33,745 nt of DNA from Holophagae bacterium (GTDB lineage: Bacteria; Acidobacteriota; Thermoanaerobaculia; Thermoanaerobaculales; Thermoanaerobaculaceae): NCBI GenBank assembly GCA_012516935.1, contig JAAYVZ010000247.1:1-33745 (forward strand), given 5' to 3'. Both the position numbers and the translations under genes were made by a program. A model generated the notes under the pieces. That model was not told the DNA's origin and made no database searches. It was given only the letters and a program-made list of their open reading frames with translations. Shown here one piece after another: positions 4,361 through 23,730 of the stretch; within the stretch, counting starts at the first letter, position 1; every line of letters starts with the position of its first letter.

Positions 4361-5707
4361 TCAGCCCTGGAGCGCCAGGCCGGCCGGTTCGGCGTCCACG
4401 AGCCGCCCGTCCCGAACCACCTCCACCCCCCGCAGGAGCACGTGCCGAAACCCGAGCCGCGTGGTTCGACCGGCCCAGGGGTCGTGTGCGTCCGCCAGCG
4501 TCGAGCGCACCGGCTGCAGGGGCCCGCATGGGTCCAGCACCACGAGGTCGGCGTCGGCACCCTCGCGAATCGTCCCCTTGCGGGGATACAGGCCAGCCAG
4601 CCGGGCCGGGTTGGTCGCCACCATCCGCACCAACGCCTCGAGGCCGGGCCCTCCCTGCTCGGTCAGCAGCTCGAACGCCAGCGGGACGAGGGCGCCGAGC
4701 CCCGGCACGCCGCAGGGTACGGCACGGAAATCACCGTTGATGATGTCTTTGTCGCGACGGGAAAAGGGGCAGTGGTCGCTGGCCAACACGTCGAGGGCAC
4801 CGGCCAGCACGAGCTCACCGAGCAGCTGTCGCGTATCCTCGTTGCGCAGCGGCGGCGAGCACAGCAGGCGATATCCCTCGGGTCGCCGCAGCGCCTCCTC
4901 GGTCAGGTACAGGTATTGCGGACAGGTCTCGGCCGAGACCGGCTGGTGCGGGCGGGCGGCGGCAACGAGGCGAGCGCCGCGCGCGGTCGAGACGTGGACG
5001 ATGTGCAACGCGCAGCCAGCCTGTCGGGCGAGCACGAGGGCGTGCTCGATCGCCTCCACCTCCGCCTGGGGAGGTCGCAGCAAGGTGTGGGAGAACGGAT
5101 CGCAGAGGTCGAGACGGGTGGCGTCCACTCGTGAGAGAACGCCGTCGTCCTCGCAGTGCAGCAGCAGCCGCAGCCCGAGCTCGGCCAGGCGGGGCAGCAG
5201 CTCGGCCAGGCGCTCCCACGACGAGTACAGCCCCGCCTGCCGGTAGGTGGTGTACAGCTTGACGGTGCCGAACCCCCGTCCGACCAGGCGGGTGAGCGCC
5301 GCCCAGTCCCACCGCTCACCGGTGGGGGTGAGGTGGAAGGCGACGTCGCACCGGCTCCGCGCGGGAACCTTGGCGAGGTAGCGCGCGGCGCACGTCTGCA
5401 GCTCCTCTCCGGGCCGCTGCGTGGCGAAGCCGACGATCGTCGTGACGCCGCCGAGCAGCGCGGCTTCCGATGCCGAGCCAAGGTCGTCGGCCAGCGTCCA
5501 GCGCCCGATCTCGTCGTCCGCGTGGACGTGGAAGTCGATGCAGCCGGGAATCACGAAAAGACCCGCAGCGTCGATCACCCGGGCACGACCCGCGTGGCCG
5601 GCGAGGTCGCTCCCCACCGCGGCGATCCGCCCATCGCGCACGAGCACGTCGCCGCAGAGCACGCCGCCTTCGGTGACGACGCGCCCGTTGGCGATCAGCA
5701 GCTCCAC
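4361..5707 (-). CDS. Dihydropyrimidinase / hydantoinase-type amidohydrolase
   Basis: A 448-residue cyclic amidase of the metal-dependent amidohydrolase superfamily. It would open a dihydropyrimidine, hydantoin or similar ring in the cytosol. The motifs are in order: GCIDFHVHADDE (metal HxH), GTVKLYTTYRQAG (lysine expected to be carboxylated and bridge the metals), LLLHCEDDG and HIVHVSTARG (metal histidines), and LASDHCPFSRRDK (catalytic Asp). The GTG start at 5707 has GGAG 8 bases upstream and lies 17 bases after the ssnA stop. The open frame continues to 6232 but there overlaps ssnA. It is the third gene of the operon, downstream of a PreT-PreA fusion and SsnA, so it would act on the reductase product. 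Whether the substrate is dihydrouracil or another ring is open. Confidence 0.9.
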   Translation of the reverse strand: MELLIANGRVVTEGGVLCGDVLVRDGRIAAVGSDLAGHAGRARVIDAAGLFVIPGCIDFHVHADDEIGRWTLADDLGSASEAALLGGVTTIVGFATQRPGEELQTCAARYLAKVPARSRCDVAFHLTPTGERWDWAALTRLVGRGFGTVKLYTTYRQAGLYSSWERLAELLPRLAELGLRLLLHCEDDGVLSRVDATRLDLCDPFSHTLLRPPQAEVEAIEHALVLARQAGCALHIVHVSTARGARLVAAARPHQPVSAETCPQYLYLTEEALRRPEGYRLLCSPPLRNEDTRQLLGELVLAGALDVLASDHCPFSRRDKDIINGDFRAVPCGVPGLGALVPLAFELLTEQGGPGLEALVRMVATNPARLAGLYPRKGTIREGADADLVVLDPCGPLQPVRSTLADAHDPWAGRTTRLGFRHVLLRGVEVVRDGRLVDAEPAGLALQG

Positions 5708-5724
5708 TTTTCGATCTCCAGGCC

Positions 5725-7065
5725 TCAGAACCGGCGCCAGAGCGCGGCCGCCAGCTCGCGGGCGCGGGCCGCCACCGCCGCCTCGTCGATGTCCAGGCAG
5801 AGGCGCTTGCCGTGCATGAGCACGCGCCCCCGGCAGATGGTGGTGTCCACCTGTGACTGGGAAACGCCGAAGACGAGGTGCCCGAGCAGTGTGCCCTCGT
5901 CGAGCGGCGTCGGCGGTTGGTAGTCCACCAGCACCACGTCCGCCGCCGCGCCCGGGGCCAGCACACCGAGCGGCACCTGCCAGTACCGGCTGGCGATGCG
6001 GGCGTTGCCGGAGAGCAACAGCCCCACCGTCTCCGCAAAGCCCACGGAGGGGTTGCGAGCGGCCAGGTGCCGCACCCACAGCGCCGCGCGTAGCTCCTCC
6101 AGCATGTTGGTGGTCATGGCGTCGGTGCCGAGGCCCACCAGCACCCCCGCCCTCGACATCGCCGGCACGTCCGCCACGCCCACGGCGTTGTTCATGTTCG
6201 ACTGTGGGTTGTGGACCACCGCAGCGCGCCACTCGGCGAGCAGCTCGAGCTCGCGCTCGGAGAGGTGTACGCCGTGGGCACAGATGGTCTTCTCACCCAG
6301 GATCCCGGCGCGGGCGAAGCGCTCCACCACCCGGCACCCGTGGTCGCGCTGGCACGCCTCCTGGTCCGAGGCCGCCTCGGCGGTGTGGACGTGAAACCCA
6401 ACCCCGAGGTCGTGGCCCGCCTGCGCTGCCGCCGCGAGCGTCCGGTCGCCGATCGTGAACGAGGCGTGCAGCCCGAAAAGCGCCTTGAGCTGCTCGCCGC
6501 CGGAGGTTGCACACTCCCCGATCCAGGCGATGTTCTCCTCGATCCCCTCGCGGGCGACGGTCTCGCCGTCCCGGTCCGAGAGCTCGTAGCAGAGGCTGGC
6601 GCGCAGGCCGCTGTCACGTACCGCACGGGCGATGGCCGGCAGCGAGCCGCGCACCGCGTGCGGGCTCGCGTGGTGGTCGACGAGCGTCGTGGTGCCGTGG
6701 CGGATCGCCTGCAACAGCGCGATCAGCGCCGAAACGTAGCAGTCCTCGAGCGTGAGCTGGCGGTCGAGGCGCCACCACAGGTGCTCGAGCACTTCCTGGA
6801 AGCTCGCCGCCGGCTCGGCCTTCCCGAGCCCGCGCACGAGCGTCGAGTAGAAGTGCATGTGGGCGTTGATGAAGCCTGGGAGCACGAGCTTGCCCGCGGC
6901 GTCCACGACCCGGGCGTCGGTGCGATCAACCTCACCGTGACGCGCGATGGCCGTGATCCGCTCACCCTCGATGACCAGCGCGTGACCCTCGAGAACGCGA
7001 CCAGGCTCGCCGAGCGTGGCGATGACGCCGCCGTCGACGATGAGACGTCGTGAGACCGCGGACAT
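5725..7065 (-). CDS. ssnA: SsnA-type amidohydrolase/aminohydrolase
   Basis: A 446-residue protein of the AtzF/TRZ-like amidohydrolase superfamily, the same length as E. coli SsnA (about 442). Visible residues are the metal motif INAHMHFYSTLVRG, VHTAEAASDQE, the histidine motif ICAHGVHLSERE, VVHNPQSNMNNAVG and the catalytic GLGTDAMTTNM. The family removes amino or halide groups from heterocycles; SsnA itself has no firmly established substrate. The ATG lies directly after the upstream stop, and its Shine-Dalgarno (AAGGAGG, 7071-7077) is built into the last codons of the PreT-PreA gene, so translation is coupled. In other bacteria SsnA occurs with selenium-dependent molybdenum hydroxylase clusters; none is in this window. 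Confidence 0.85.
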   Translation of the reverse strand: MSAVSRRLIVDGGVIATLGEPGRVLEGHALVIEGERITAIARHGEVDRTDARVVDAAGKLVLPGFINAHMHFYSTLVRGLGKAEPAASFQEVLEHLWWRLDRQLTLEDCYVSALIALLQAIRHGTTTLVDHHASPHAVRGSLPAIARAVRDSGLRASLCYELSDRDGETVAREGIEENIAWIGECATSGGEQLKALFGLHASFTIGDRTLAAAAQAGHDLGVGFHVHTAEAASDQEACQRDHGCRVVERFARAGILGEKTICAHGVHLSERELELLAEWRAAVVHNPQSNMNNAVGVADVPAMSRAGVLVGLGTDAMTTNMLEELRAALWVRHLAARNPSVGFAETVGLLLSGNARIASRYWQVPLGVLAPGAAADVVLVDYQPPTPLDEGTLLGHLVFGVSQSQVDTTICRGRVLMHGKRLCLDIDEAAVAARARELAAALWRRF

Positions 7066-9561
7066 CTATACCTCCTTCAAAGCTGCGAGCTCATCGGCGG
7101 TGCGCTCGCGCATGTACAGCGCCCCGGCGAAGCACTTCTGAGCGCAAATCGAGCAGCCGATGCAGCGCTCGGCATCGGTGCGCGGCACCTTTCGCTCGTC
7201 GAGCGTGATCGCGAGGTAGGGGCAGCGGGTGCAGTTGCCGCAGTGGTGGCAGAGCTTTTCGTGCACGGCCGAGATCGGCTTGGTCGCCGGCAGCTCCATG
7301 AAACCGGTGATCGGGTTGGGCAGCGCCCGCCCGATGAGCTCCGCCACCGAGCCGATCCCGCGCTCGGCCAGCAGATACGACAACCCCGAGTGGAGCTCCC
7401 GCACGACCTCGTACCCGTACTTCATGACCACCGTGCAGAGCTGGACCGTGCGGGCACCCAGCGCCAGGAAGTTGGCGGCGGCCTTGTAGTCCATCGGCCC
7501 GCCGTTGCCGGACACCACGACACCCAGGCGCGAGACGTTGGCGAGCGTCAGGTTGGAGATCGGGATCACTCCTTCGCCCGACATGCCGACCACGATCCCC
7601 TCCTCCCACCCGGTCTTGGTCCCGGGGCGGAACGCCAAGGTCGGAAAGGTGTTGGCGAGCGTGACACCAGCCCGCTTGCCGGGGTAACGGGCGAAGACCT
7701 CGGTGACCGCCGCCATGATCGGGTAGATCGACGTGACTGCCGCGGTCAGCTTGAAGAGCTTGGGCACCTCCGGGTCGCCGACCTGCATTACCCAGTCGAT
7801 GATCGCGGCGGTGAGCTCGGGATCCTGCGAGACGATGTCCCCTTTGGTGCCGTCGCCTCCCTGCGGGCAGGAGAGCGAGTACTCGATCCCGCACACCCCC
7901 GCCCGCTCGAGCATGGCGGTGTTGGACTGCCACCCCAGGGCGTCGAGCTCCGCGTTGCCGGTGACGGGGCCGCCGGTCGAGGCGAGGGTGAGGCGGTCAG
8001 GGAACTCGCGACGTAGCCGCTCCACCTCGCGGCAGACGCGGTCCAGCGGGTGCCCGGACACGTTGTCGCAGTTGGCGTAGGTGGACGGCGTGAGGGCGAA
8101 CATGTAACGGGCCGGGATGTGGATCGGCACGTTGTCGAACGCTGTCTTCATCACGCCACCGGCCCACCCGGCTTCGTAGGCGCGCCGCATCTGCTCGTAC
8201 CCGTCGGTGGGGGGCGCCGCCGAAAGCAGGAACGGAGAAAGGATCGGCCGGCCGAAGAAGTCGCAGCCCAGCGGCACCGGTGTGGGATCGTAGCCCCGCA
8301 GCAGCGCCCAGCTTTTGACCGGTGTGTCCACCCCGGGCGGCGCGGCGCCCTGGAGAAACGCGTGCACCGCCAACGCGGTGTTCTTGCCAGCCGCCACGGC
8401 TTCAACGACGGTCGTCGGTCCGTTGGCGAGATCACCGGCTGAAAACACGCCAGGCGAGGCGGAGAGGCGGAGCGCCGAGCGGGCGCCGATCGCCACCAGG
8501 ACGAGATCGAAGTCCGGACGGGACTGCTCGGTGCCCGGGACCTCCTTCACGTGGCGTGGATGGAACGGCACTCCGTCCGGTAGTTGGACCTTGCAGGTGT
8601 CGAGACCGACGATGAGGCCGTCGCGGACCGAGATCCCGGTGACCCGCGTGCGCCCCGAGAGGTGGACGCCCGCCGTCATCAACCCCCGCAGCTCACGCGG
8701 CGTCAGCGGCAGCTCGGCCAGGCTCTCCAGCACCAGCATCTCCACCCGGGCGGCACCGCGCCGGACCGCGATCTCGGCGCAGTCCGCGGCCACCGCACCG
8801 CCCCCAATCACCGCGACCCGACGCCCGAGCACGGGGTGGCGGTCGGGCGCCCGAAGGAACGACAGCCCCAAAATCGCCACCTCTTCACCCGGAATCCCCA
8901 GCCGAAGCGGCTCGTCGAGGCCGGTGGTCACCACCACCGCGTCGAAGCCCTGCTGAAGGAGCACCTCGGGGCTTTCGACGGCCTCGCCGCGCCGCACCTT
9001 CACGTCCCCCAGCGTCTCCACGAACGCGAGGTCGGCTGCCAGCACCGCGGGATCCAACCGATACTCCGGGATGAGGGCGGCCATCCCACCGCTCCGCCCC
9101 GCGGTCTCGAACAGCTCGACCGCATGCCCTTCCTGCGCCAGAACCGCGGCCGCTCCGTACCCAGCCGGTCCAGCTCCGACGATCGCCACCCGTTGACCGG
9201 AAGCCGGAGCAGTCCCGAACCCACCACGCCAGCCCAGCTCCCGGGCTTTGGCGATCAGCGTCGCCTGGATGGCCGGAATCTCGATCGCACGGTCGAACGT
9301 GCGACGGCTGCAGGCATGCTGGCAGTGGGTGTCGGGACACACCCAGCCGCAGACGCCGCCGAGTGGGTTCTTGGAGAGGATCATCGCCGCCGCCCGGCGA
9401 TAGTCGCTTGGCTCTCCGACACGTGCCGCCATGATGAAGTCAGCCGGCGAGCAATCGGCCGGGCAAGCGGCTTGGCACGGCTTTTCGGCACACGACTCAC
9501 AGCGTGCGAGCTCGGCACGCAACTGAGCATCGGTCAGCAGATAGCGTTCGTTCTCGGACAT
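7066..9561 (-). CDS. Fused PreT-PreA dihydropyrimidine dehydrogenase-like oxidoreductase
   Basis: This 831-residue protein has the domain order of mammalian dihydropyrimidine dehydrogenase. An N-terminal cysteine-rich Fe-S domain (about 20-90, with CESCAEKPCQAACPADC) is followed by an FAD domain (GAGPAG near 130) and an NAD(P)H domain (IGGGAVAADCAEIA near 255). Next is an FMN barrel (about 430-740), then two C-terminal [4Fe-4S] motifs, CHHCGNCTRC and CIGCSICAQKC. E. coli encodes these as separate PreT and PreA. The FMN domain keeps the SCP catalytic cysteine and ANT, but reads YSLSCPQGG where dihydropyrimidine dehydrogenases have NLSCPHG, and STGGPVTGN in the other substrate-binding segment. 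The substrate may therefore not be uracil or thymine. I prefer the ATG at 9561: TAGGGT at 9578-9583 overlaps the GTG at 9579 and leaves a short leader before the ATG. Confidence 0.85.
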   Translation of the reverse strand: MSENERYLLTDAQLRAELARCESCAEKPCQAACPADCSPADFIMAARVGEPSDYRRAAAMILSKNPLGGVCGWVCPDTHCQHACSRRTFDRAIEIPAIQATLIAKARELGWRGGFGTAPASGQRVAIVGAGPAGYGAAAVLAQEGHAVELFETAGRSGGMAALIPEYRLDPAVLAADLAFVETLGDVKVRRGEAVESPEVLLQQGFDAVVVTTGLDEPLRLGIPGEEVAILGLSFLRAPDRHPVLGRRVAVIGGGAVAADCAEIAVRRGAARVEMLVLESLAELPLTPRELRGLMTAGVHLSGRTRVTGISVRDGLIVGLDTCKVQLPDGVPFHPRHVKEVPGTEQSRPDFDLVLVAIGARSALRLSASPGVFSAGDLANGPTTVVEAVAAGKNTALAVHAFLQGAAPPGVDTPVKSWALLRGYDPTPVPLGCDFFGRPILSPFLLSAAPPTDGYEQMRRAYEAGWAGGVMKTAFDNVPIHIPARYMFALTPSTYANCDNVSGHPLDRVCREVERLRREFPDRLTLASTGGPVTGNAELDALGWQSNTAMLERAGVCGIEYSLSCPQGGDGTKGDIVSQDPELTAAIIDWVMQVGDPEVPKLFKLTAAVTSIYPIMAAVTEVFARYPGKRAGVTLANTFPTLAFRPGTKTGWEEGIVVGMSGEGVIPISNLTLANVSRLGVVVSGNGGPMDYKAAANFLALGARTVQLCTVVMKYGYEVVRELHSGLSYLLAERGIGSVAELIGRALPNPITGFMELPATKPISAVHEKLCHHCGNCTRCPYLAITLDERKVPRTDAERCIGCSICAQKCFAGALYMRERTADELAALKEV

Positions 9562-9577
9562 CCGACCCCCGTCGCTC

Positions 9578-9583
9578 ACCCTA
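9578..9583 (-). promoter_or_regulatory. Putative -10 box (TAGGGT) of the PreT-PreA/ssnA/hydantoinase operon
   Basis: TAGGGT on the minus strand lies 16 bases before the ATG at 9561, the same spacing as TACCAT before hydE and TAGACT before the nitrilase-like gene. It overlaps the alternative GTG start at 9579 and so argues for the ATG. No clear -35. Confidence 0.35.
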
Positions 9584-9615: not shown

Positions 9616-11528
<1,913 letters not shown>

Positions 11529-14789: not shown

Positions 14790-15830
14790 CTACCCCCTTC
14801 CCCGTCGCCGACCTCCCGACCCCCGACCGATCTGCCTGCCCATGCGCACGATCCTGCCCGACAGGCAGTGGACGCACTCGTTGGCGGTCTCACGGATACA
14901 GGCCTTGCCGGGGTAGATCTCGTACAGCGCCCGGTACTCCACCGGCGTCAGGTTCGGCATCACGACGTTGGCGCCGCGAGTCAGCCCGAGCTCTCGCCCC
15001 GAGGCGAGGTTGAGCGTCGCCAGCGCCGTCGTCGACGGGATGTTGGCCTCCGGACAGAGCAACCGAGTCAGGGCCACGACCTTGTAGGTCATCAGCTCGG
15101 TGTTGGGAACCTGCTCGCTGTCCGCGGCCGGCGGCAGCTCGCCGCGGCCGAGAGGCGTCACGGGATGGGGTAGCCACGGGCCAACGCCGATCATGTCGAG
15201 GTCGAGCTCCACGAACGATTGCAGGTCGTCGGCGAGTGTGGCGTAGGTCTGGCCTGGAATACCGATCATCACCCCAGAGCCGACCTCGTAGCCGAGCTCC
15301 CGCAGCCGGCGGAGCAGTACGAAGCGGTCCGACAACCGGCCCGGCAGCGAGGGGTGGATGCGGGCGTACAGCTCCTGGTCGGAGGTCTCGAACCGCAACA
15401 GGTAGCGATCGGCACCGGCTGCACGCCATGACCTGAGGTCCTCGTCGGAGCGTTCACCGAGGCTCAGGGTGACGGCAAGACCGGTCTCGTCCTTGATCCG
15501 CCGGACGACGTCAGCGACGGCCCCGCGCGTGAGACCGTAGTCCTCGCCCGCCTGCAAAACCACCGTGCCGTACCCCAGCTCCCGCGCCTGACGGGCACAG
15601 GCGAGGATCTCCTCCGCGCTCATCCTGTAGCGCTTCACCTCGGAGTTGCTGACGTTGATCCCACAGTACGCGCAACGGCGCACGCAATGGTTGGAGACCT
15701 CGATGAGACCGCGTAGGTGCACCTCGTCGCCGACATGGACCCGGCGCGTCGCGTCGGCCCGCGCCCAGAGCTCCTCCAAGCGCGCTTCGTCGCTCTCCCG
15801 CAGCCACTCGATCAGGTCACGTCGGTCCAT
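14790..15830 (-). CDS. hydE: [FeFe]-hydrogenase maturase HydE (radical SAM)
   Basis: Radical SAM enzyme needed to build the dithiolate-bridged di-iron subcluster of [FeFe] hydrogenase. The 346-residue protein has the SAM-cluster motif CVRRCAYCG (Cys49, 53, 56), a GED-type SAM-contact region (LQAGEDYG), and near the C-terminus C-x7-C-x2-C (ACIRETANECVHC), the optional second-cluster motif of HydE. I chose the ATG at 15830, which has GGGGAG just upstream. An ATG 18 bases earlier overlaps the putative -10 box and lacks a ribosome-binding site. The gene lies downstream of the hydrogenase operon but is separated from it by a strong terminator, so it is probably transcribed on its own. The other maturases, HydF and HydG, are not in this window. 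The last residues are an Arg/Gly-rich tail. Confidence 0.9.
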   Translation of the reverse strand: MDRRDLIEWLRESDEARLEELWARADATRRVHVGDEVHLRGLIEVSNHCVRRCAYCGINVSNSEVKRYRMSAEEILACARQARELGYGTVVLQAGEDYGLTRGAVADVVRRIKDETGLAVTLSLGERSDEDLRSWRAAGADRYLLRFETSDQELYARIHPSLPGRLSDRFVLLRRLRELGYEVGSGVMIGIPGQTYATLADDLQSFVELDLDMIGVGPWLPHPVTPLGRGELPPAADSEQVPNTELMTYKVVALTRLLCPEANIPSTTALATLNLASGRELGLTRGANVVMPNLTPVEYRALYEIYPGKACIRETANECVHCLSGRIVRMGRQIGRGSGGRRRGRG

Positions 15831-15846
15831 CGGCTCCCCGGGTCGC

Positions 15847-15852
15847 ATGGTA
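15847..15852 (-). promoter_or_regulatory. Putative -10 box (TACCAT) of hydE
   Basis: TACCAT lies 16 bases before the hydE ATG and 17 bases after the terminator T-run of the hydrogenase operon, so it could restart transcription for hydE. No clear -35. Confidence 0.35.
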
Positions 15853-15869
15853 GAGAGTGCTGAGAGAAG

Positions 15870-15933
15870 AAAAAAGGGGCCGGGAGCGGGAGGTGGCCGA
15901 CGATCGGGGATCCGGCGGCTCCTCTCCCACCCC
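15870..15933 (-). terminator. Intrinsic terminator ending the hydrogenase/sensor operon
   Basis: Read on the minus strand, arms GGGG, GGGAG and GGAG (15933-15919) pair with CTCC, CTCCC and CCCC (15892-15876) with only 1-2 base interruptions, followed by six T (15875-15870). It lies just after the receiver-kinase gene and before hydE. Confidence 0.8.
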
Positions 15934-15951
15934 GGGTTTTCCAACCACCGG

Positions 15952-17082
15952 TCACTGCCGTTGCAATGTCACCGTGAAGGTCGTCCCGACCTCGGGGGTG
16001 CTGTCGACGCCGACCTCGCCTCCGTACAACATCGCCAGCTTCTTGAGGATCGACAACCCCAGCCCCGAACCCTGGATGCTCCGGGTCTTGGCGTTCTTGA
16101 TCCGCACGAACTCACCGAAGAGAAGCTTGACTTCCTCGGGGCTCATGCCGATGCCAGTGTCCGCCACCGCGATCCTGACCTGGTCGCCGACCTCGGAGAG
16201 ACGCACCTCGACCTGCCCACCCTCTCGGTTGTACTTGACCGCGTTCGAGACCAGGTTATTGAAGATGATTTCGATCTCACCGGGATCCGCATGGAGCAGC
16301 ACCCGCTCGGGGCCAACGAGGTTCACGGTGATCTGCCGATTGCGGGCGGCCGGGGTGGAGGTCTCGATGGCGCGAACCGCGATCTCGCGCACGTCGACCT
16401 CCACCAGCTCACGCCGCTTCTGCCCGGATTCGATCCGGGTCAGATCGAGGATGTCGACGATCAGCTTGCGCATTCCCTCGATGCGCTCGAGGCTGCGACC
16501 CAACACCTCACCGGCCTTGGGACTCGCAGGATCCACCACCCGATCGCGCAGGAGCTGCAGGTAGCCCTCGACCGCTGCCAGCGGCGCCTTGAGCTCGTGG
16601 GCGAGCACCGAAATGAACTGGAAGCGGACCTGCCGCTTCTCTTCGGCGAGTCGCTTGGCCTCGCGCTGCAGCAGCAGATGGCGGGCGGTCTTGGCGATCG
16701 TCGCCTTGAGCTCCTCGGGGGTGAAGGGCTTGGCGAGGAAGTCGTAGGCGCCGCGCTTGGTGGCACTGACCGCGGTCTCGATCGTGGCGTACGCCGTGAT
16801 CATGACCGTGAGCCAGTCGCGCGGCTCGGCTGCCACCCACTCCAGCACCTCGAGCCCCGACATCCCGGGCAGCTTGTGGTCCAGCAGCAGGATGTCGACC
16901 GGGTTCTCCTTCAGGTACGCGACCCCGTCCTCACCGGACTCCGCCTGGCTGATGGCGAAACCCACGTCGGCCTCGGATTCGGGGACACGCACCCGGAACG
17001 ACTGCAGCACGCGAGTGACACCGAACCGGATCCCCGCCTCGTCGTCGACGACCAGGACCTTGAGGTTGTCCATGGCCGTCAC
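15952..17082 (-). CDS. Receiver-first hybrid sensor histidine kinase
   Basis: A 376-residue cytosolic two-component protein with no membrane segment. An N-terminal receiver domain (about 7-135) has the acidic pair at VVDDE, phosphoacceptor Asp68 in LLLDHK and Lys118 in LAKPF. A short coiled linker leads to a HisKA domain with FISVLAHELKAP (His162) and a HATPase domain with NNLVSNAVKYN, DTGIGM and GSGLGLS. A receiver ahead of a kinase lets an upstream kinase control its autophosphorylation. The likely donor is the [FeFe]-domain kinase two genes upstream. There is no DNA-binding or other output domain. The GTG at 17082 follows the previous stop by 2 bases; the ATG at 17073 is a plausible alternative. 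This is the last gene before the operon terminator. Confidence 0.9.
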   Translation of the reverse strand: MTAMDNLKVLVVDDEAGIRFGVTRVLQSFRVRVPESEADVGFAISQAESGEDGVAYLKENPVDILLLDHKLPGMSGLEVLEWVAAEPRDWLTVMITAYATIETAVSATKRGAYDFLAKPFTPEELKATIAKTARHLLLQREAKRLAEEKRQVRFQFISVLAHELKAPLAAVEGYLQLLRDRVVDPASPKAGEVLGRSLERIEGMRKLIVDILDLTRIESGQKRRELVEVDVREIAVRAIETSTPAARNRQITVNLVGPERVLLHADPGEIEIIFNNLVSNAVKYNREGGQVEVRLSEVGDQVRIAVADTGIGMSPEEVKLLFGEFVRIKNAKTRSIQGSGLGLSILKKLAMLYGGEVGVDSTPEVGTTFTVTLQRQ

Positions 17083-17084
17083 GG

Positions 17085-17486
17085 CTACGCGTTGAGCTTG
17101 AGGAGACGGTTGATCTCGCGGATGAGCTGCTCGAAACGCACGGGCTTGTCGAGGATGACATCCGCCCCGGCCCAGGCACGCTCCCCTTTGCTCGCCGCAT
17201 CAAAAGCGATGCCGGCCTCGCTCGCCACCGCCGTAACCATGATCACCGGGATGCGGGGATCCTTGCGCTTGATCGCGTGGGCGAGCCCGAACCCCGAGTC
17301 CGCATGCTCCATCATGAGGTCGCAAATCGCGAGGTCGAATCCGGTGCTCACCACCAGCTCGCGCGCCTGCGCGGCGCTCTCCGCCGTCACCGTCGCGAAA
17401 CCCCCGGCCTCGAGCTGCAGCTTCATCTGCTCGAGGAAGTCGGGGTTGTCGTCCACAACCAGGATCGTGCGAGGGAGTGTGGTCAT
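17085..17486 (-). CDS. Stand-alone response regulator receiver protein
   Basis: This 133-residue CheY-like single-domain protein carries ILVVDDN (acidic pair), phosphoacceptor Asp56 in LAICDLMM, a Thr/Ala switch region (VTAVAS) and the conserved lysine in LDKPV. No effector domain follows. It probably shuttles phosphate between the upstream [FeFe]-domain kinase and the downstream receiver kinase, or acts by protein contact; this is inference. The ATG has GGAGG about 5 bases upstream. The sensor kinase ends 34 bases before it, and the next gene starts 2 bases after its stop, so all three are co-transcribed. Confidence 0.88.
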   Translation of the reverse strand: MTTLPRTILVVDDNPDFLEQMKLQLEAGGFATVTAESAAQARELVVSTGFDLAICDLMMEHADSGFGLAHAIKRKDPRIPVIMVTAVASEAGIAFDAASKGERAWAGADVILDKPVRFEQLIREINRLLKLNA

Positions 17487-17520: not shown

Positions 17521-19533
17521 TCACTCCCGCCGGCCGGCCCGGGGCAGGGTCACGGTGAAGCTTGTTCCCGTCGGACCCACGGCGGGGTCAGCGTTCGACT
17601 CCACCTTGATGTCGCCGCGGTGCATCTTGACGATACCGTAGATGACCGGCAGCCCGAGCCCGGTACCCTTGCCCATCGGCTTGGTGGTGAAGAACGGCTC
17701 GAAGACCTTGTTCATGTTCTCCTTGCTGATGCCGACGCCGGTGTCGGCCACGGTGAGTAGCACCGACTCTTTGGCGGTGCGGGAGGAGAGCGTAAGCGTG
17801 CCGCCCTCCGGCATCGCCTCGATGGCGTTGGAGATGAGGTTGGTGAGTACCTGCATCACCTGGTCACGGTCGATCTCCGCCGCCAGCTCCGGCTCGTCGT
17901 GCTCGACCCGCACCCTCACGTGGTCGGGAATCGGCACGCTTCGTACCCCCTGGAGGACCAGGTCGCGGATCAGGGTCTCTTGCAAGAACACCTTGTTCTG
18001 CCGCGCAAAATTCAGCAACCCCGAGACGATCTTCTTGCAGCGATCGGCCTGAGCCACGATCATCTCGAGGTCCTTGCGACCCGGCGCATCCTTCGGCGCC
18101 TCCTCGAGGATCATGTGGGCGTACAGCAGCACCACCCCCAACGGGTTGTTCACCTCATGAGCGATACCAGCGGCGAGCTGGCCCATGCTCGCCAGGCGCT
18201 CCGAGTGCATAAGTGCCTGCTGCGTGTTGCGCAGCTCCTCGTGGGAGAGAGCCAGTTCCCCGACCGACGTGCGCAGCGCCTCGATGGTGAACGGCAGACA
18301 CATCTCCGACTCCGCGAGCCCCTTGCACACCGCCACGGCGTGCTCGCGGCAGGTGTCGTAGCCGCAGGCGCCGCAGTTGAGCTCGTCAGCCGGGGTGTGC
18401 TTGCCCATGCGCTCCAAGACCTCGGTGATTTCGGTGGACGAAGGCGTCGGCAGGCGTTGGTCGTCGGCGACGAACGTCCGCCCCAGGTCCAGGTTGGCGA
18501 AGCGATCGAGCCACGCTTGGTGGTCGTGGGGATGCGAGGCGGCGAGGTGCTGGCGGACGTACTTGCTGACCACGGCCCGACGGCGGAACAGCGGCACCTC
18601 GGAGGTCATGCCCGCCCCCATGATGCAGCCGTTGCAGCACAGCAGATCGAGCAGCCGGGCATTGAGGTCGAGATCCCCCGACTCGAACTCCTTGATCACC
18701 TCCACGAAGCTGGTCCGCCCGTCCGCCGCGACGATATCGCCGAGGATGAGGTTCTCGTCGATGCTGGCCGCCTGCAGCGCACCGCGACTGAGGGGGAACA
18801 GCGCCCCTGTCCCGCCGTGCGGCGGGTCGAACTCCGAGGCCTCGGTCTCCTCGGGGTGGATCCCGGCCGCGGCCAGCATCTGCCGCAGCTCGGCGAACGT
18901 GAGCACCTCGTCGATCTCCGGCGATAGACCGGTGTCGAGCTCCTCGCCCTTTTTGGCCACACAGGGTCCGATGAACACCGTCTTGAGCTCGGGCCCGTGC
19001 ACCTGACGCAGCGCCCGCGCGGTGGCCACCATCGGCGACGCTACGGGAGCGAGAAAGTCGACGAGCGAGGGGTAGTAGCGCTCGACGAACGTAACGATTG
19101 CCGGACACGAGGTCGAGATGTAGCAGCGGTCCGGGTTGTCGGCCAGAAGCTGGCGGTATCGGCGAGCCACGAGGTCGGCCCCGAACGCCACCTCATTGAC
19201 GAGCGCAAACCCCAGCCGGCGAAGCATCCCCACCAAGACCTTCGCGTCGAGCTCGACGAACTCGGCTGGAAAGCTGGGCGCCACGCAGGCGGCAACCCGC
19301 TCTCCGGAAGCCAGGAGCGCTTGCACGGCAGCCTCGGAGCTCGCGACCTGCTTGGCTTTCTGGCTGCACACCCGCACGCAGTTGCCGCAGCCGATGCAGC
19401 GTCCCGGCACAACCTCGGCCTGCCAACCGGCGATGCGTATGGCTTTGGCCGGGCACTCGCGTACGCAGGTATAGCAGACGCGGCAGCGCTCTTTGACGGT
19501 GGTGACGAGCGGGACGTGCGAGAGTCTGGCCAC
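17521..19533 (-). CDS. [FeFe]-hydrogenase-domain sensor histidine kinase
   Basis: A 670-residue soluble protein joining hydrogenase and kinase modules. Residues 17-27 and 46-56 are two [4Fe-4S] ferredoxin motifs. About 75-330 is a HydA-like H-cluster domain with STSCPA (Cys143), GPCVAKKGEE (Cys191) and LCCNGCIMGAG (Cys299, 303), so all four expected cluster ligands are present. Residues 387-412 (CGACGYDTC ... C) match the CGxCGxxxC Fe-S domain of PF04060 type. A coiled segment leads to HisKA with GIAHEVNNP (His459) and a HATPase with NLISNAIEA, DTGVGI and GKGTGLGL. Sensory [FeFe] hydrogenases are known, often with PAS domains; here no PAS is seen and the kinase is fused directly. A likely role is reporting H2 or redox state to the two receiver proteins downstream. 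The GTG start lies 9 bases after the hydA stop. Confidence 0.9.
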   Translation of the reverse strand: MARLSHVPLVTTVKERCRVCYTCVRECPAKAIRIAGWQAEVVPGRCIGCGNCVRVCSQKAKQVASSEAAVQALLASGERVAACVAPSFPAEFVELDAKVLVGMLRRLGFALVNEVAFGADLVARRYRQLLADNPDRCYISTSCPAIVTFVERYYPSLVDFLAPVASPMVATARALRQVHGPELKTVFIGPCVAKKGEELDTGLSPEIDEVLTFAELRQMLAAAGIHPEETEASEFDPPHGGTGALFPLSRGALQAASIDENLILGDIVAADGRTSFVEVIKEFESGDLDLNARLLDLLCCNGCIMGAGMTSEVPLFRRRAVVSKYVRQHLAASHPHDHQAWLDRFANLDLGRTFVADDQRLPTPSSTEITEVLERMGKHTPADELNCGACGYDTCREHAVAVCKGLAESEMCLPFTIEALRTSVGELALSHEELRNTQQALMHSERLASMGQLAAGIAHEVNNPLGVVLLYAHMILEEAPKDAPGRKDLEMIVAQADRCKKIVSGLLNFARQNKVFLQETLIRDLVLQGVRSVPIPDHVRVRVEHDEPELAAEIDRDQVMQVLTNLISNAIEAMPEGGTLTLSSRTAKESVLLTVADTGVGISKENMNKVFEPFFTTKPMGKGTGLGLPVIYGIVKMHRGDIKVESNADPAVGPTGTSFTVTLPRAGRRE

Positions 19534-19542
19534 TGGCGAGCT

Positions 19543-21261
19543 CTATCGTACGACGTCCCGACGATGGTAGTGCGTGTGGAGGAGGTGATGGCTGCGTTCG
19601 CTCAGAGGCTGGCCGAGAAACTCACGGTACAGCTCGGCGACCGCCTCGTTGTGATGCGACATGCGGATGGGACCCTCGGCATCGATCGCATACAACCCCG
19701 CGAGGCGGCGCTGCACCCCGGCGAGGTCCACACCGAGAAGCTGACCGCCGCCCGCAATGCAGCCCCCCGGACAGGTCATAACCTCGATAAAATGCAGGTC
19801 CTTGCGACCCTGGCGTACCTGCTCGACGAGGGCGCGGGCGTTGCCGAGCCCCGAGACCACAGCCAGGCCGAGATCGAGGCCTCCCACCTTGACCCGCGTC
19901 TCCTTGACACCGGCGAGCCCGCGTACCGCTTCAACCTCCATCACTTCCGGATCTTGCCCGGTGACCAGGAAGCAGGCGGTGCGGACCGCCGCCTCCATGA
20001 CCCCACCGGTGCCGCCGAACAGCTTGCCGGCGGTCGAGCGCTCCCCGAACGGCCGGTCGGCGTCCTCCGCTTGCAACGCCAGCACGTCCAGACCATGCAT
20101 CCGGATAAGCTGGACCAGCTCGCGGGTAGTGAGCACGGCATCGATGTCGGCGATTCCGTCGTGCACCATCTCCGGACGGCTTGCCTCGAACTTCTTGGCC
20201 GTGCACGGCATCACCGAAACCGAGTAGACCTTCGAGGGATCGAGTCCCTGCTTGACCGCCCAGTAGCCCTTGATCACGGCGCCGAGCATCTGCTGCGGGC
20301 TCTTGCAGGTGGACAGGTGCCCCAGCATATCCGGGTAGAACTCCTCCATGAACTTGATCCATCCCGGCGAGCAGCTCGTCATCATCGGCAGGGTACCGCC
20401 AGAGGTGAGCCGCTGCACGAGCTCGGAGGCTTCCTCCATGATCGTCAGGTCGGCCGAGAACGAGGTGTCGAACACGTAGTCGAAGCCGAGTCGGCGCAGC
20501 GCCGCGGTCAACGTGCCGGCGATGTCCTGGCCAGCCGGCAGCCCGAACGCCTCCGCCAGCGTCACCGAGACCGCCGGGGCGTGCTGGATGACGACCGTCA
20601 TCTCGGGGTCCTGGATCGCCGCCATCACCTGCTTGACGTGGCTTTGCTCGAACAATGCCCCGGTGGGGCAGACCATCACGCATTGCCCGCAGAGGATGCA
20701 GCTCGACAGGTTGAGCCCCTCGTTGAAGGCGGGCCCCACACGCGTCTTGGAGCCGCGGCCGATGAAGTCGATCGCCGCCACCGACTGCACCTCCTCGCAC
20801 TCGCGTACGCACTTGCCGCAAAGGATGCACTTGGCGGGGTCGCGGCCGAGCGCGGGACCGGAGATGTCGATCGTGTGGTCGGACTTTAGGCCCGAGAAGC
20901 GGCGTTGGGCGATACCGTGCTCGGCCGCCAGCGTCTGGAGCTGGCAGTTGTTGTTGCGCACACAATACAAGCAGTCATCGGGATGGTTCGAGAGCAGTAG
21001 CTCGATGATGGTGCGACGGGCGGCAACGGCGCGGGCTGAGTGGGTGAGGATCTTCATGCCGTCGGCGACCGGGTACGAGCACGCCGGAATCAGGCTGCGC
21101 TGGCCTTCAACCTCGACCGCGCAGATCCGGCATGCACCCGAAGGCAGCAGCCCTTCCATGTGGCAGAGGGTGGGAACCGACAGCCCGGCCCGCTTGAGAG
21201 CTGCGAGGATCGTCTCGCCGGCCTGGGCCTCGATGGGACGGTTGTTGACCTCGATCTGCAT
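19543..21261 (-). CDS. hydA: [FeFe] hydrogenase catalytic subunit HydA (bifurcating type)
   Basis: Catalytic subunit for reversible H2 formation. The 572 residues carry an N-terminal [2Fe-2S] domain (Cys33, 44, 47, 61), an HxxxC-type [4Fe-4S] motif (His93, Cys97, 100, 106), two ferredoxin clusters (Cys145-155 and 188-198) and the H-cluster domain. The latter has TSCSPGW (295-301), MPCTAKKFE (351-359) and MTCPGGCIAGGG (495-506). It ends in the small-subunit-like segment GQPLSERSHHLLHTHY. The domain order matches HydA of trimeric NADH/ferredoxin-linked hydrogenases, although it lacks the extra C-terminal domain of the Thermotoga enzyme. I chose the ATG at 21261, preceded by GGAGAGAG. The ATG at 21273 overlaps the hydB stop and is also possible. 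It is co-transcribed with hydC and hydB. Confidence 0.95.
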   Translation of the reverse strand: MQIEVNNRPIEAQAGETILAALKRAGLSVPTLCHMEGLLPSGACRICAVEVEGQRSLIPACSYPVADGMKILTHSARAVAARRTIIELLLSNHPDDCLYCVRNNNCQLQTLAAEHGIAQRRFSGLKSDHTIDISGPALGRDPAKCILCGKCVRECEEVQSVAAIDFIGRGSKTRVGPAFNEGLNLSSCILCGQCVMVCPTGALFEQSHVKQVMAAIQDPEMTVVIQHAPAVSVTLAEAFGLPAGQDIAGTLTAALRRLGFDYVFDTSFSADLTIMEEASELVQRLTSGGTLPMMTSCSPGWIKFMEEFYPDMLGHLSTCKSPQQMLGAVIKGYWAVKQGLDPSKVYSVSVMPCTAKKFEASRPEMVHDGIADIDAVLTTRELVQLIRMHGLDVLALQAEDADRPFGERSTAGKLFGGTGGVMEAAVRTACFLVTGQDPEVMEVEAVRGLAGVKETRVKVGGLDLGLAVVSGLGNARALVEQVRQGRKDLHFIEVMTCPGGCIAGGGQLLGVDLAGVQRRLAGLYAIDAEGPIRMSHHNEAVAELYREFLGQPLSERSHHLLHTHYHRRDVVR

Positions 21262-21272
21262 GACTCTCTCCA

Positions 21273-23267
21273 TCACTCCACGCGCACGGCCTGGGGCCGG
21301 CAAACGGCGAAGCACGAGCCGCAGGATATGCACTTCTCGGCCACGATGTAGTGGGGGCTCTTGAGGGTGCCGAGGATCGCCTGGGTGGGGCAGGCCTTGA
21401 GGCAGAGCCCGCAGCCTACGCAGCGCTCGACGTCGATCGAGTACGTGAGCAGCTCCGCGCAGGCGCCGGCCGGGCATTTCCGCTCGTAGATGTGCGCCTC
21501 GTACTCGTCCCGGAAGTAGCGCAGCGTCGATAGCACCGGGTTGGGGGCGGTTTGCCCCAAACCGCACAGGCTCGTGTCCTTGATCACCTCGGCGAGCTGC
21601 TCGAGCGCCATCACTCCCTGGAACCGCTGCAGGGCGTCGGTGCCGGCCTCGCTACGGCGGGCGCGAGTGATCCCTTGCAGGATCTCGAGCATCCGGCGGG
21701 TGCCCTCGCGGCACGGAATGCACTTCCCACAGCTCTCGCGCTGGATGAAGTCCATGAAGAACTTGGCAACGTCAACCATGCACGTGGCCTCGTCCATGAC
21801 CACGAGGCCGCCCGAACCCATCATGGCACCGACTGTCTTGAGCGACTCGTAATCGATCTCGATATCCAGATGCTGCGTGGGGATGCAGCCGCCGGAGGGG
21901 CCGCCGACCTGGGCCGCCTTGTACGCCTTGCCGTCGGGGATCCCGCCGCCGATGTCGAAGACGATCTCCCGCAGGGTGGTGCCCATCGCAACCTCGACGA
22001 GCCCGGTGCGGTCGATCTTGCCCGAGAGCGCGAACACCTTGGTGCCCTTCGAGCCGGCGGTGCCGACCGACGCGAACCACTCGGCGCCGCGATCGAGGAT
22101 CGCTGGGACGTTGGCCAGGGTCTCGACGTTGTTGATCACCGTCGGCTTGCCGAACAGCCCCGCCTGCGCCGGATAGGGAGGCCGTGGGCGTGGCATCCCA
22201 CGCCGACCTTCGATCGAGTGCAGCAGCGCCGTCTCCTCGCCGCACACGAACGCCCCGGCGCCTTGCTTGATGACGATCTCGAGGTGGTAGTCGGTGCCGA
22301 GAATCTGTTCGCCGAGGAAGGCATGTGCCTTGGCCTCGGCGATCGCGTGCAGCAGCCGCTTGATCGCCAATGGGTATTCGGCCCGGATGTAAACGTACGC
22401 CTTGTTGGCACCGATGGCGTAGGCGGCGATCGCCATGCCCTCGAGCAGGCGGTGCGGGTCGCCTTCGATCACCGCGCGGTCCATGAACGCGCCCGGATCG
22501 CCCTCGTCGGCGTTGCATACCAGGTACTTCTGGGGTCCGGCCTGACGGTTGGCGATGCTCCACTTGCGGCCGGTCGGAAAGCCGCCACCTCCCCGGCCAC
22601 GCAGCCCGGAGAGCTCGACGGCGCTGCACACCTCGGCCGGAGTCATGTCGTTGAGCACCTTGCTGAGGGCGCGGTAGCCACCGAACGCCAGGTACTCGTC
22701 GATGTCCGAGGGGTCGATGATGCCGCAGTTGGCGAGCACCCAGCGGGTCTGGGGGGCGAAAAACGGGTGCTCGTCGAGGTAGGGCAGGCCGTCCCACGGT
22801 TGGAGCAGGTCGTTGCGATGCTGACCCAGTACCGCAGCCGCCGGCATCTCGCCCGCCAGCGCCTGGTCGAGCAGCGCCGGCACCATCTTCTCCGTCACCT
22901 TCTGGAAGCAGACGCGAGTGCGACCGGGAAGCTGCACGTCGACCAGTGGCTCGACCGAGCACATGCCGATGCACCCGACCTCGACGATGTCCGCCGAGTG
23001 ATCGTGCTCGACGAGCCACGACTCGATGGCCTTGAGCGTCTTGGCCGCCCCAGCCCCGAGGCCGCACGTTCCCGTGCCGACGAAGATCGTCGGACGGTCC
23101 ACGACGTCCCGGCGCAGGGCGTGCAGGCGACGGCCGCGCTCCTGCGCACACGCCGTGCTCTCGTGGCAGTGGGGACCGTCCACGAGGCAGCTCAGGAGGT
23201 CCTTGCAGTACTCGGCATGGCTGTGCCAGCAGCCGTCGCAGCAGGGATCGATGAGGGTCCTACGCAT
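21273..23267 (-). CDS. hydB: HydB / NuoF-like flavin subunit of bifurcating hydrogenase
   Basis: NAD(H)- and FMN-binding subunit, the presumed site of electron bifurcation. Its 664 residues contain a thioredoxin-like [2Fe-2S] domain (Cys68, 99, 103), the FMN/NADH fold with GRGGGGFPTGRKW (224-236), a [4Fe-4S] motif ESCGKCIPCREG (511-522, plus Cys568), and two C-terminal ferredoxin motifs (Cys616-626 and 646-656). The first 40 residues are an unusual Cys/His-rich extension with cysteines at 9, 10, 13, 21, 27, 34 and 40, ahead of the usual start of the family. The ATG at 23267 overlaps the hydC stop (ATGCGTAG, 8 bases). The frame is open to 23489, but that stretch lies inside hydC. Confidence 0.94.
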   Translation of the reverse strand: MRRTLIDPCCDGCWHSHAEYCKDLLSCLVDGPHCHESTACAQERGRRLHALRRDVVDRPTIFVGTGTCGLGAGAAKTLKAIESWLVEHDHSADIVEVGCIGMCSVEPLVDVQLPGRTRVCFQKVTEKMVPALLDQALAGEMPAAAVLGQHRNDLLQPWDGLPYLDEHPFFAPQTRWVLANCGIIDPSDIDEYLAFGGYRALSKVLNDMTPAEVCSAVELSGLRGRGGGGFPTGRKWSIANRQAGPQKYLVCNADEGDPGAFMDRAVIEGDPHRLLEGMAIAAYAIGANKAYVYIRAEYPLAIKRLLHAIAEAKAHAFLGEQILGTDYHLEIVIKQGAGAFVCGEETALLHSIEGRRGMPRPRPPYPAQAGLFGKPTVINNVETLANVPAILDRGAEWFASVGTAGSKGTKVFALSGKIDRTGLVEVAMGTTLREIVFDIGGGIPDGKAYKAAQVGGPSGGCIPTQHLDIEIDYESLKTVGAMMGSGGLVVMDEATCMVDVAKFFMDFIQRESCGKCIPCREGTRRMLEILQGITRARRSEAGTDALQRFQGVMALEQLAEVIKDTSLCGLGQTAPNPVLSTLRYFRDEYEAHIYERKCPAGACAELLTYSIDVERCVGCGLCLKACPTQAILGTLKSPHYIVAEKCISCGSCFAVCRPQAVRVE

Positions 23268-23730
23268 TGGCGGCCGCCTCCTTGCGCAGCGTGCTGAGAA
23301 GCTTGCCGAGCGACTCCGGCTTGAGGTTGCCGTGGAACTCGCCGTTGATGCACAGCACCGGCGCCAGCCCGCACGCTCCGAGACAGGCCACGACCTCGAT
23401 CGAAAAAAGCCCGTCCCGCGTCGTCTGTCCAGCGTCGATGCCGAGCGAACGCTTGAGCGACTCGAGCACCCCCAGCGAGCCCTTGACATGACAGGCGGTC
23501 CCGCGACAGACCTGGATGTTGTAACGACCGAGGGGCTGGAATCGGAACTGGTTGTAGAACGTCGCCACGCCGTAGACCTTGCTGGCCGGGAGGCCGAGGT
23601 ACTGGCCGACGGCGATGACGCTGTCGCGTGAGAGGTATCCCTGCACGTCCTGCACCTCCTGCAGGATCGGTATCAGGGCATCGCGCTTGGCCCCGGGGTA
23701 CCTCTGGAAAATGAATTGTAGGTCGGTCAT
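23260..23730 (-). CDS. hydC: HydC / NuoE-like [2Fe-2S] subunit
   Basis: This 156-residue thioredoxin-fold ferredoxin subunit has helical N-terminal residues, YGVATFYNQFRF, and the [2Fe-2S] ligands Cys75, 80 (CRGTAC) and Cys116, 120 (CLGAC), the NuoE pattern. It passes electrons between HydB and HydA in the hydrogenase complex. The ATG has a strong Shine-Dalgarno, AAGGAGG, 7 bases upstream (23738-23744). It is the first gene of the operon hydC-hydB-hydA-sensor-receiver-receiver kinase. I found no convincing sigma70 or sigma54 promoter in the 400 bases upstream. Confidence 0.93.
   Translation of the reverse strand: MTDLQFIFQRYPGAKRDALIPILQEVQDVQGYLSRDSVIAVGQYLGLPASKVYGVATFYNQFRFQPLGRYNIQVCRGTACHVKGSLGVLESLKRSLGIDAGQTTRDGLFSIEVVACLGACGLAPVLCINGEFHGNLKPESLGKLLSTLRKEAAANA

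Follow-up and report, generated by a model that had tools for sequence, protein, structure and literature searches.

HydDB distinguishes three types of group C [FeFe]-hydrogenases, all of them putative: histidine kinase-linked (C1), chemotactic (C2), and phosphatase-linked (C3) (PMC5037454). A unifying feature of the sensory hydrogenases of groups C and D is an Fe-S module with the motif Cx2Cx4Cx16C (PMC8163306, PMC13104023), which, along with the loss of the cysteine C299, marks these groups; a signalling role has been proposed for the extra cluster (PMC8163306), which has been tested in TamHydS (PMC13104023), and the proton-relay C299 is replaced in the characterised slow sensory hydrogenases (PMC10055695, PMC8163306). 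The group C3 protein “BfuT,” encoded with A3 hydrogenases, carries PAS in its sub-type IV and a histidine kinase domain in its sub-type V; the cluster organisation of sub-type V comes from Hydrogenedentota and is the same in Caldithrix abyssi (PMC11406978). The question of how putative sensory [FeFe]-hydrogenases transmit their signal arises from the characterised representatives, TmHydS and TamHydS, which have no fused kinase; the search of the openly licensed literature turned up no biochemical work on a kinase-fused member. A sensor and a kinase joined in one protein make signal transmission directly testable, and the sequence data point to two features of such proteins, a shortened P3 loop and a helix of fixed phase that links the last Fe-S cysteine to the kinase.

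Here we analyse such a protein, denoted HydS, encoded in contig JAAYVZ010000247.1 of the Holophagae bacterium assembly GCA_012516935.1, the whole 33,745-nucleotide stretch of which is hereafter the window. The source genome (3.7 Mb, 98% complete, 293 contigs) has a Thermoanaerobaculaceae MAG of the Acidobacteriota (locus L023) as its nearest named relative. The gene is, as in the original prediction, a single frame of 670 amino acids at 17521-19533, to which we add the strand (minus) and a GTG start. Full-length orthologues with the same architecture are present in two relatives (80% and 71% identity), which rules out an assembly chimera or a frameshift. The protein is laid out as follows:

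17521..19533, minus strand: HydS-type sensor kinase of 670 aa; the coordinates take in the stop codon (ORF, Pfam, orthologues, alignment)
19366..19494, minus strand: N-terminal ferredoxin region with two [4Fe-4S] clusters, residues 14-56 (Pfam, alignment)
18613..19299, minus strand: H-cluster domain Fe_hyd_lg_C, residues 79-307 (Pfam, fold match)
19105..19107, minus strand: codon of Cys143, P1 ligand, CpI C300 (alignment, HMMER against CpI)
18961..18963, minus strand: codon of Cys191, P2 ligand, CpI C355 (alignment, HMMER against CpI)
18625..18636, minus strand: Cys300-Asn-Gly-Cys303, shortened P3 ligand loop, CpI C499 and C503 (alignment, HMMER)
18298..18375, minus strand: C-terminal Fe-S motif Cx2Cx4Cx16C, Cys387/390/395/412, PF04060 (Pfam, alignment)
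18187..18297, minus strand: predicted signalling helix, residues 413-449 (AF2 model, linker counts)
17998..18186, minus strand: HisKA dimerisation and phospho-acceptor domain, His459 (Pfam, alignment)
17539..17871, minus strand: HATPase_c kinase domain, residues 555-665 (Pfam, alignment)

The Pfam scan, in which each reported domain exceeded its gathering score, recovered all the modules named in the original prediction (two ferredoxin clusters, a HydA-like domain, a CGxCG-type Fe-S domain, and HisKA/HATPase): Fer4_10 at residues 14-56 (E 2e-8), Fe_hyd_lg_C at 79-307 (E 8e-43), PF04060 at 385-414 (E 1e-7), HisKA at 450-512 (E 2e-13), and HATPase_c at 555-665 (E 2e-25). All cysteines of both ferredoxin clusters (Cys17/20/23/27 and Cys46/49/52/56) and those of the C-terminal cluster (Cys387-412) are invariant in an alignment of 74 homologues. 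The kinase half has the phospho-acceptor histidine and the N, G1, F, and G2 boxes of a HisKA-type sensor histidine kinase, with H459, N565/N569, D597xG599xG601, F614, and G621xGTGLG (G621-G627) invariant in the same 74 proteins, so that the predicted completeness of the ATP-binding boxes is borne out. Cys387/390/395/412 fit the group C and D motif Cx2Cx4Cx16C exactly (PMC8163306); the idea that this CGxCG module is a novel insertion was dropped, given that PF04060 is present in all 10 HydS-type proteins scanned and has already been described in these groups (PMC8163306). No PAS domain was detected by the Pfam scan, in keeping with the original prediction and against a hidden PAS, and in the AF2 model helices directly follow the C-terminal Fe-S motif. 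The protein thus falls outside the PAS-type sub-group of group C (M2f, TmHydS-like, with a PAS domain after this motif); only that sub-group is excluded because group D and kinase-bearing C3 proteins also have no PAS domain.

The AF2 model, built from the 74-sequence alignment, has a mean pLDDT of 84.1, with values below 50 only at residues 1-3, 430-456, and 507-513. Foldseek and VIA matches cover mainly residues 1-359; VIA-align of residues 3-357 yielded Z scores of 41.9 with CbA5H and about 38-40 with CpI, and about 345-350 residues of the hydrogenase domain align with these two enzymes at an rmsd of 2.4-2.8. The three ligand motifs, STSCPAI (P1), GPCVAKK (P2), and LLCCNGCIMG (P3), supply the four cysteines expected of the [FeFe]-hydrogenase superfamily, although P3 reads CxxC rather than CxxxC. 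Among the ligands originally proposed, Cys143, Cys191, and Cys303 stand, whereas Cys299 is one residue off: in the HMMER alignment to CpI (the C299A variant), “llccn-gc” falls on “VMACHgGC,” which pairs Cys300 with C499, Cys303 with C503, Cys299 with A498, and Leu298 with M497. Among the 74 homologues, Cys143, Cys191, Cys300, and Cys303 are all invariant, whereas position 299 is variable (Cys in 53, Ala in 17, Ser in 4). With Cys300 as the ligand, P3 falls one residue short of the canonical CxxxC. Because CpI C299 directly precedes the ligand C300, Ser142 occupies the proton-relay position and Cys143 is the ligand; the 74 homologues have T, S, A, N, or P at the relay position, that is, C299 is not conserved, as in sensory groups C and D. 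Lys194 of the P2 motif PCxxK, a residue that touches a cyanide ligand in CpI, is invariant in the 74 close homologues. Two distant kinase-fused sensors have altered P2 motifs, PCISR in L136 and SCISR in L137, and their H-cluster sites are possibly degenerate or repurposed.

The CxxC form of P3 was found in 73 of the 74 kinase-fused proteins of the main alignment (the exception is L066), in 14 of 15 further kinase-fused proteins from the window's phylum in the tree set (the exception is L131), and in all 21 kinase-type proteins from additional loci. The CxxxC form is present in 8 PAS-type proteins, ten non-kinase proteins, the MCP-fused L144, and the window's own HydA. Among the sampled sequences, the shortening of P3 appears to go with kinase fusion, a link of which no description was found in the openly licensed literature searched. 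With one residue fewer in this loop than the characterised enzymes have, assembly of the H-cluster is not assured, and this bears on two competing explanations. One, which we regard as unlikely although it deserves serious attention, holds that the N- and C-terminal [4Fe-4S] clusters let the sensor kinase read the redox state of the cell (reduced ferredoxin), with the H-site serving for electron storage or being vestigial, and H2 not being the physiological signal. Such a role would agree with the invariance of the two N-terminal clusters and the C-terminal one, the replaced relay cysteine, the short P3 loop, and the altered P2 motifs of some distant members (L136, PCISR; L137, SCISR), but sits poorly with the invariance of the four ligands and the PCxxK lysine in the 74 close homologues, and with the presence of HydEFG, with hydE inside the operon. 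The other, which seems to us improbable, makes the hydrogenase part a pseudo-enzyme whose H-site binds only a [4Fe-4S] cluster and whose role is that of a structural platform or an O2/CO sensor. The short P3 loop and the replacement of C299 are compatible with this, as is the statement, in PMC11406978, that Hydrogenedentota group C1 sequences are largely devoid of recognisable H-cluster motifs; however, the ligand set and the surrounding residues are invariant over many phyla, and hydABC and hydE are adjacent.

The segment between the sensor and the kinase is nearly constant in length. Cys412 and His459 are 47 residues apart in 94 of 100 proteins (four others have 40 and two have 54) and in 20 of 21 further ones (65 in the remaining one), for a combined 114 of 121, with six of the seven exceptions off by exactly one heptad. 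Leucines of the sensor kinase recur with a 7-residue period at positions 413, 420, 427, 434, and 441, where at least 96% of the homologue linkers have Leu or another aliphatic residue. At least two cases of 40-residue linkers (L032 beside L047; L053 within L044/L092) occur on well-supported branches adjoining 47-residue relatives, indicating that linker length changed more than once, by whole heptads. An unbroken heptad rule does not hold because L167, one of the 21 further proteins, has 18 additional residues. This mostly heptad-phased spacing speaks for a signalling helix of the coiled-coil type that leads from the Fe-S cluster to the kinase, a reading that rests on sequence because confidence of the model is low at residues 430-456. 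No mention of a fixed linker length or heptad phasing was found in the openly licensed literature searched.

The sensor kinase gene belongs to a compact minus-strand operon in the order hydC (NuoE-like), hydB (NuoF-like), hydA, hydS, REC, REC-HK, and hydE, in which neighbouring genes overlap or lie a few to 34 bases apart. The neighbours of hydS are:

23260..23730, minus strand: HydC/NuoE-like [2Fe-2S] subunit (profile matches)
21273..23282, minus strand: HydB/NuoF-like subunit with two [4Fe-4S] motifs at the C terminus besides an FMN domain; its start is not fixed (profile matches)
19543..21267, minus strand: HydA, group A catalytic subunit of a trimeric hydrogenase (NF040763, 799.5 bits)
17085..17486, minus strand: REC, stand-alone receiver protein, 133 aa, with conserved Asp56 and Lys114 (Pfam, alignment)
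15952..17082, minus strand: REC-HisKA-HATPase protein (REC-HK), 376 aa, with conserved Asp68 and His162 (Pfam, alignment)
14790..15944, minus strand: HydE, H-cluster maturase; coordinates of the ORF, true start probably further in (match above the curated cut-off)

HydG and HydF are encoded on another contig of the same genome, both above cut-off, and complete the HydEFG maturation set. REC-HK also keeps its ATP-binding boxes; no DNA-binding domain was found in REC or REC-HK, and none of the genes of the window operon was seen to encode a DNA-binding regulator. In the stand-alone REC, the segment ahead of the K114-P115 loop looks longer than in the usual receiver and contains a W105 that is conserved (43 sequences). 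The position of hydS, only 9 bases downstream of hydA, together with the presence of HydA directly upstream in 61 of the 72 loci with enough flank (L099 is missed from this count only because its genes overlap), could signify an auxiliary role for the sensor kinase in the HydABC complex, as a subunit for slow catalysis or electron transfer, with the kinase monitoring the activity of the complex and not free H2. We hold this to be very improbable: some homologues have no adjoining hydA, and HydABC enzymes, with 7p5h, 8a6t, and 7q4v as solved complexes, are not known to need such a subunit. The P1 motif of the window HydA is TSCSPGW, in which a Ser falls where CpI has its ligand C300; this is probably ordinary because the solved Acetobacterium woodii HydA (7q4v) has the identical motif and Ser at this position is called common in PMC11406978. 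The same paper links the FMN domain and the two C-terminal [4Fe-4S] motifs of HydB to bifurcation. Elsewhere in the window, an HtpG/Hsp90-like reading (9616-11528) is divided between 10704-11528 and 9616-11067, frames that overlap, which suggests a frameshift or an assembly error, and the region 4361-9579, in which a PreA/GltD-like fusion (7066-9579) lies beside ORFs resembling hydantoinase/dihydropyrimidinase and amidohydrolase, looks like a nucleobase degradation cluster.

A search for relatives of residues 1-425 produced at least 571 candidate stretches, the best 80 of which were examined for architecture and operon. Complete ORFs of 650-700 aa, in which the H box comes after the Fe-S motif, were obtained from 75 of these 80; in this set the fused architecture prevails, and most loci preserve the operon hydC-hydB-hydA-hydS-REC-REC/HK(-hydE). 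REC adjoins hydS in 56 of 65 loci with enough flank, REC-HK lies downstream in 60 of 65, and HydE follows in 27 of 52. The gene order of the window, complete or up to the contig end, recurs in records named Planctomycetota, Acidobacteria, Marinimicrobia, Latescibacteria, Eisenbacteria, KSB1, Hydrogenedentota, Myxococcales, and Fermentibacteraceae, among others. Of the genomes sampled, 30 of 396 from the window's phylum and 46 of 392 from that of L024 encode the sensor module, mostly in frames of about 670 aa or more, or of about 560-630 aa; the shorter proteins scanned include four PAS-type (one from a plasmid record) and one MCP-fused. The module thus serves as a plug-in input for several outputs, which are all joined at one site behind the fourth Fe-S cysteine. 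The kinase-fused members are not recovered as one clade: the tree, which has long branches and a single group A row, needs at least two label changes. A search of a plasmid collection with the sensor kinase gave partial matches only. In three genomes (G425, G426, and G427), a second sensory [FeFe] gene, 36-42% identical and with an open frame of about 600-620 aa, accompanies the kinase-fused one. Twenty loci (L030, L037, L045, and 17 others) contain a gene for a Rex-like redox repressor, which directly precedes hydC in 18 of these; it was not seen at that place in the window, and its presence upstream in relatives implies that H2 sensing need not be the main control.

Taken together, the domain content, the conservation of the ligands, the structural match to CpI and CbA5H, the HydEFG set, and the operon with HydABC, REC, and REC-HK make it well supported, as the original prediction had it, that a sensory [FeFe]-hydrogenase domain feeds a histidine kinase. 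The explanation that we prefer, with reasonable but far from full confidence, is a soluble H2- or redox-responsive sensor kinase with a HydS-type group C input that adjusts the adjacent bifurcating-type HydABC via REC and REC-HK. H2 would react at a HydEFG-matured H-cluster held by Cys143, Cys191, Cys300, and Cys303; the redox change would move to the C-terminal [4Fe-4S] cluster (Cys387-412), which, at the foot of a continuous helix, may alter helix packing and thereby the phosphorylation state of His459; the phosphoryl group would pass to the adjacent REC and/or REC-HK, whose output would adjust the neighbouring trimeric HydABC to the H2 level. In this scheme, the sequence itself shows the domains, the ligand and kinase residues, the mostly heptad-phased linker, the conserved operon, and the maturases; we infer the cluster occupancy, H2 as the ligand, which way the switch works, the succession of phosphotransfer steps, and what is regulated. 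Counted against it are the shortened P3, the lack of a DNA-binding output in REC and REC-HK, the Rex-like gene in 20 relatives, and the linker variant with 18 extra residues. More speculatively, and with rather doubtful standing, the kinase-fused [FeFe] sensors might form a distinct, widespread class of H2-sensing two-component systems, in which the CxxC form of P3 tunes the H-cluster for sensing, the C-terminal [4Fe-4S] cluster directly drives the kinase via a heptad-phased coiled coil without a PAS domain, and a dedicated REC and REC-HK relay the signal.

With respect to known systems, TmHydS of Thermotoga maritima (group C, M2f), compared here by its published description, shares with the window protein the two N-terminal [4Fe-4S] motifs, the H-domain, the Cx2Cx4Cx16C motif, and the replacement of C299 and of M353, the latter by Gly (Gly189 here), but has PAS in place of the kinase (PMC10055695). 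TamHydS of Thermoanaerobacter mathranii (group D, M2e) has no fused kinase and a separate signalling partner (PMC8163306, PMC13104023). WP_013483411.1 of Ruminococcus albus pRUMAL01 (35% identity over residues 10-415) has the same order of Fer4, H-domain, and PF04060; unlike the window protein, it is 558 aa long, with no kinase and a CxxxC P3, and is adjoined by a SpoIIE phosphatase gene. A close counterpart is BfuT sub-type V, which also combines a sensory [FeFe] domain with a histidine kinase and whose gene adjoins A3 HydABC; the accessible part of this account gives no REC or REC-HK partners, linker, or P3 loop, unlike the window locus (PMC11406978), and we recovered Hydrogenedentota loci with the window's own gene order (L068, L078, L098). 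The original proposal of an uncharacterised sensor class, built on the absence of PAS and the extra Fe-S module, is therefore not supported: the Fe-S module is standard in groups C and D, and a kinase-bearing C3 protein beside A3 hydrogenases is already on record (PMC8163306, PMC13104023, PMC11406978). The architecture is thus a published one, the family is widespread, and the window protein is of a known kind, agreeing with BfuT sub-type V in architecture and operon.
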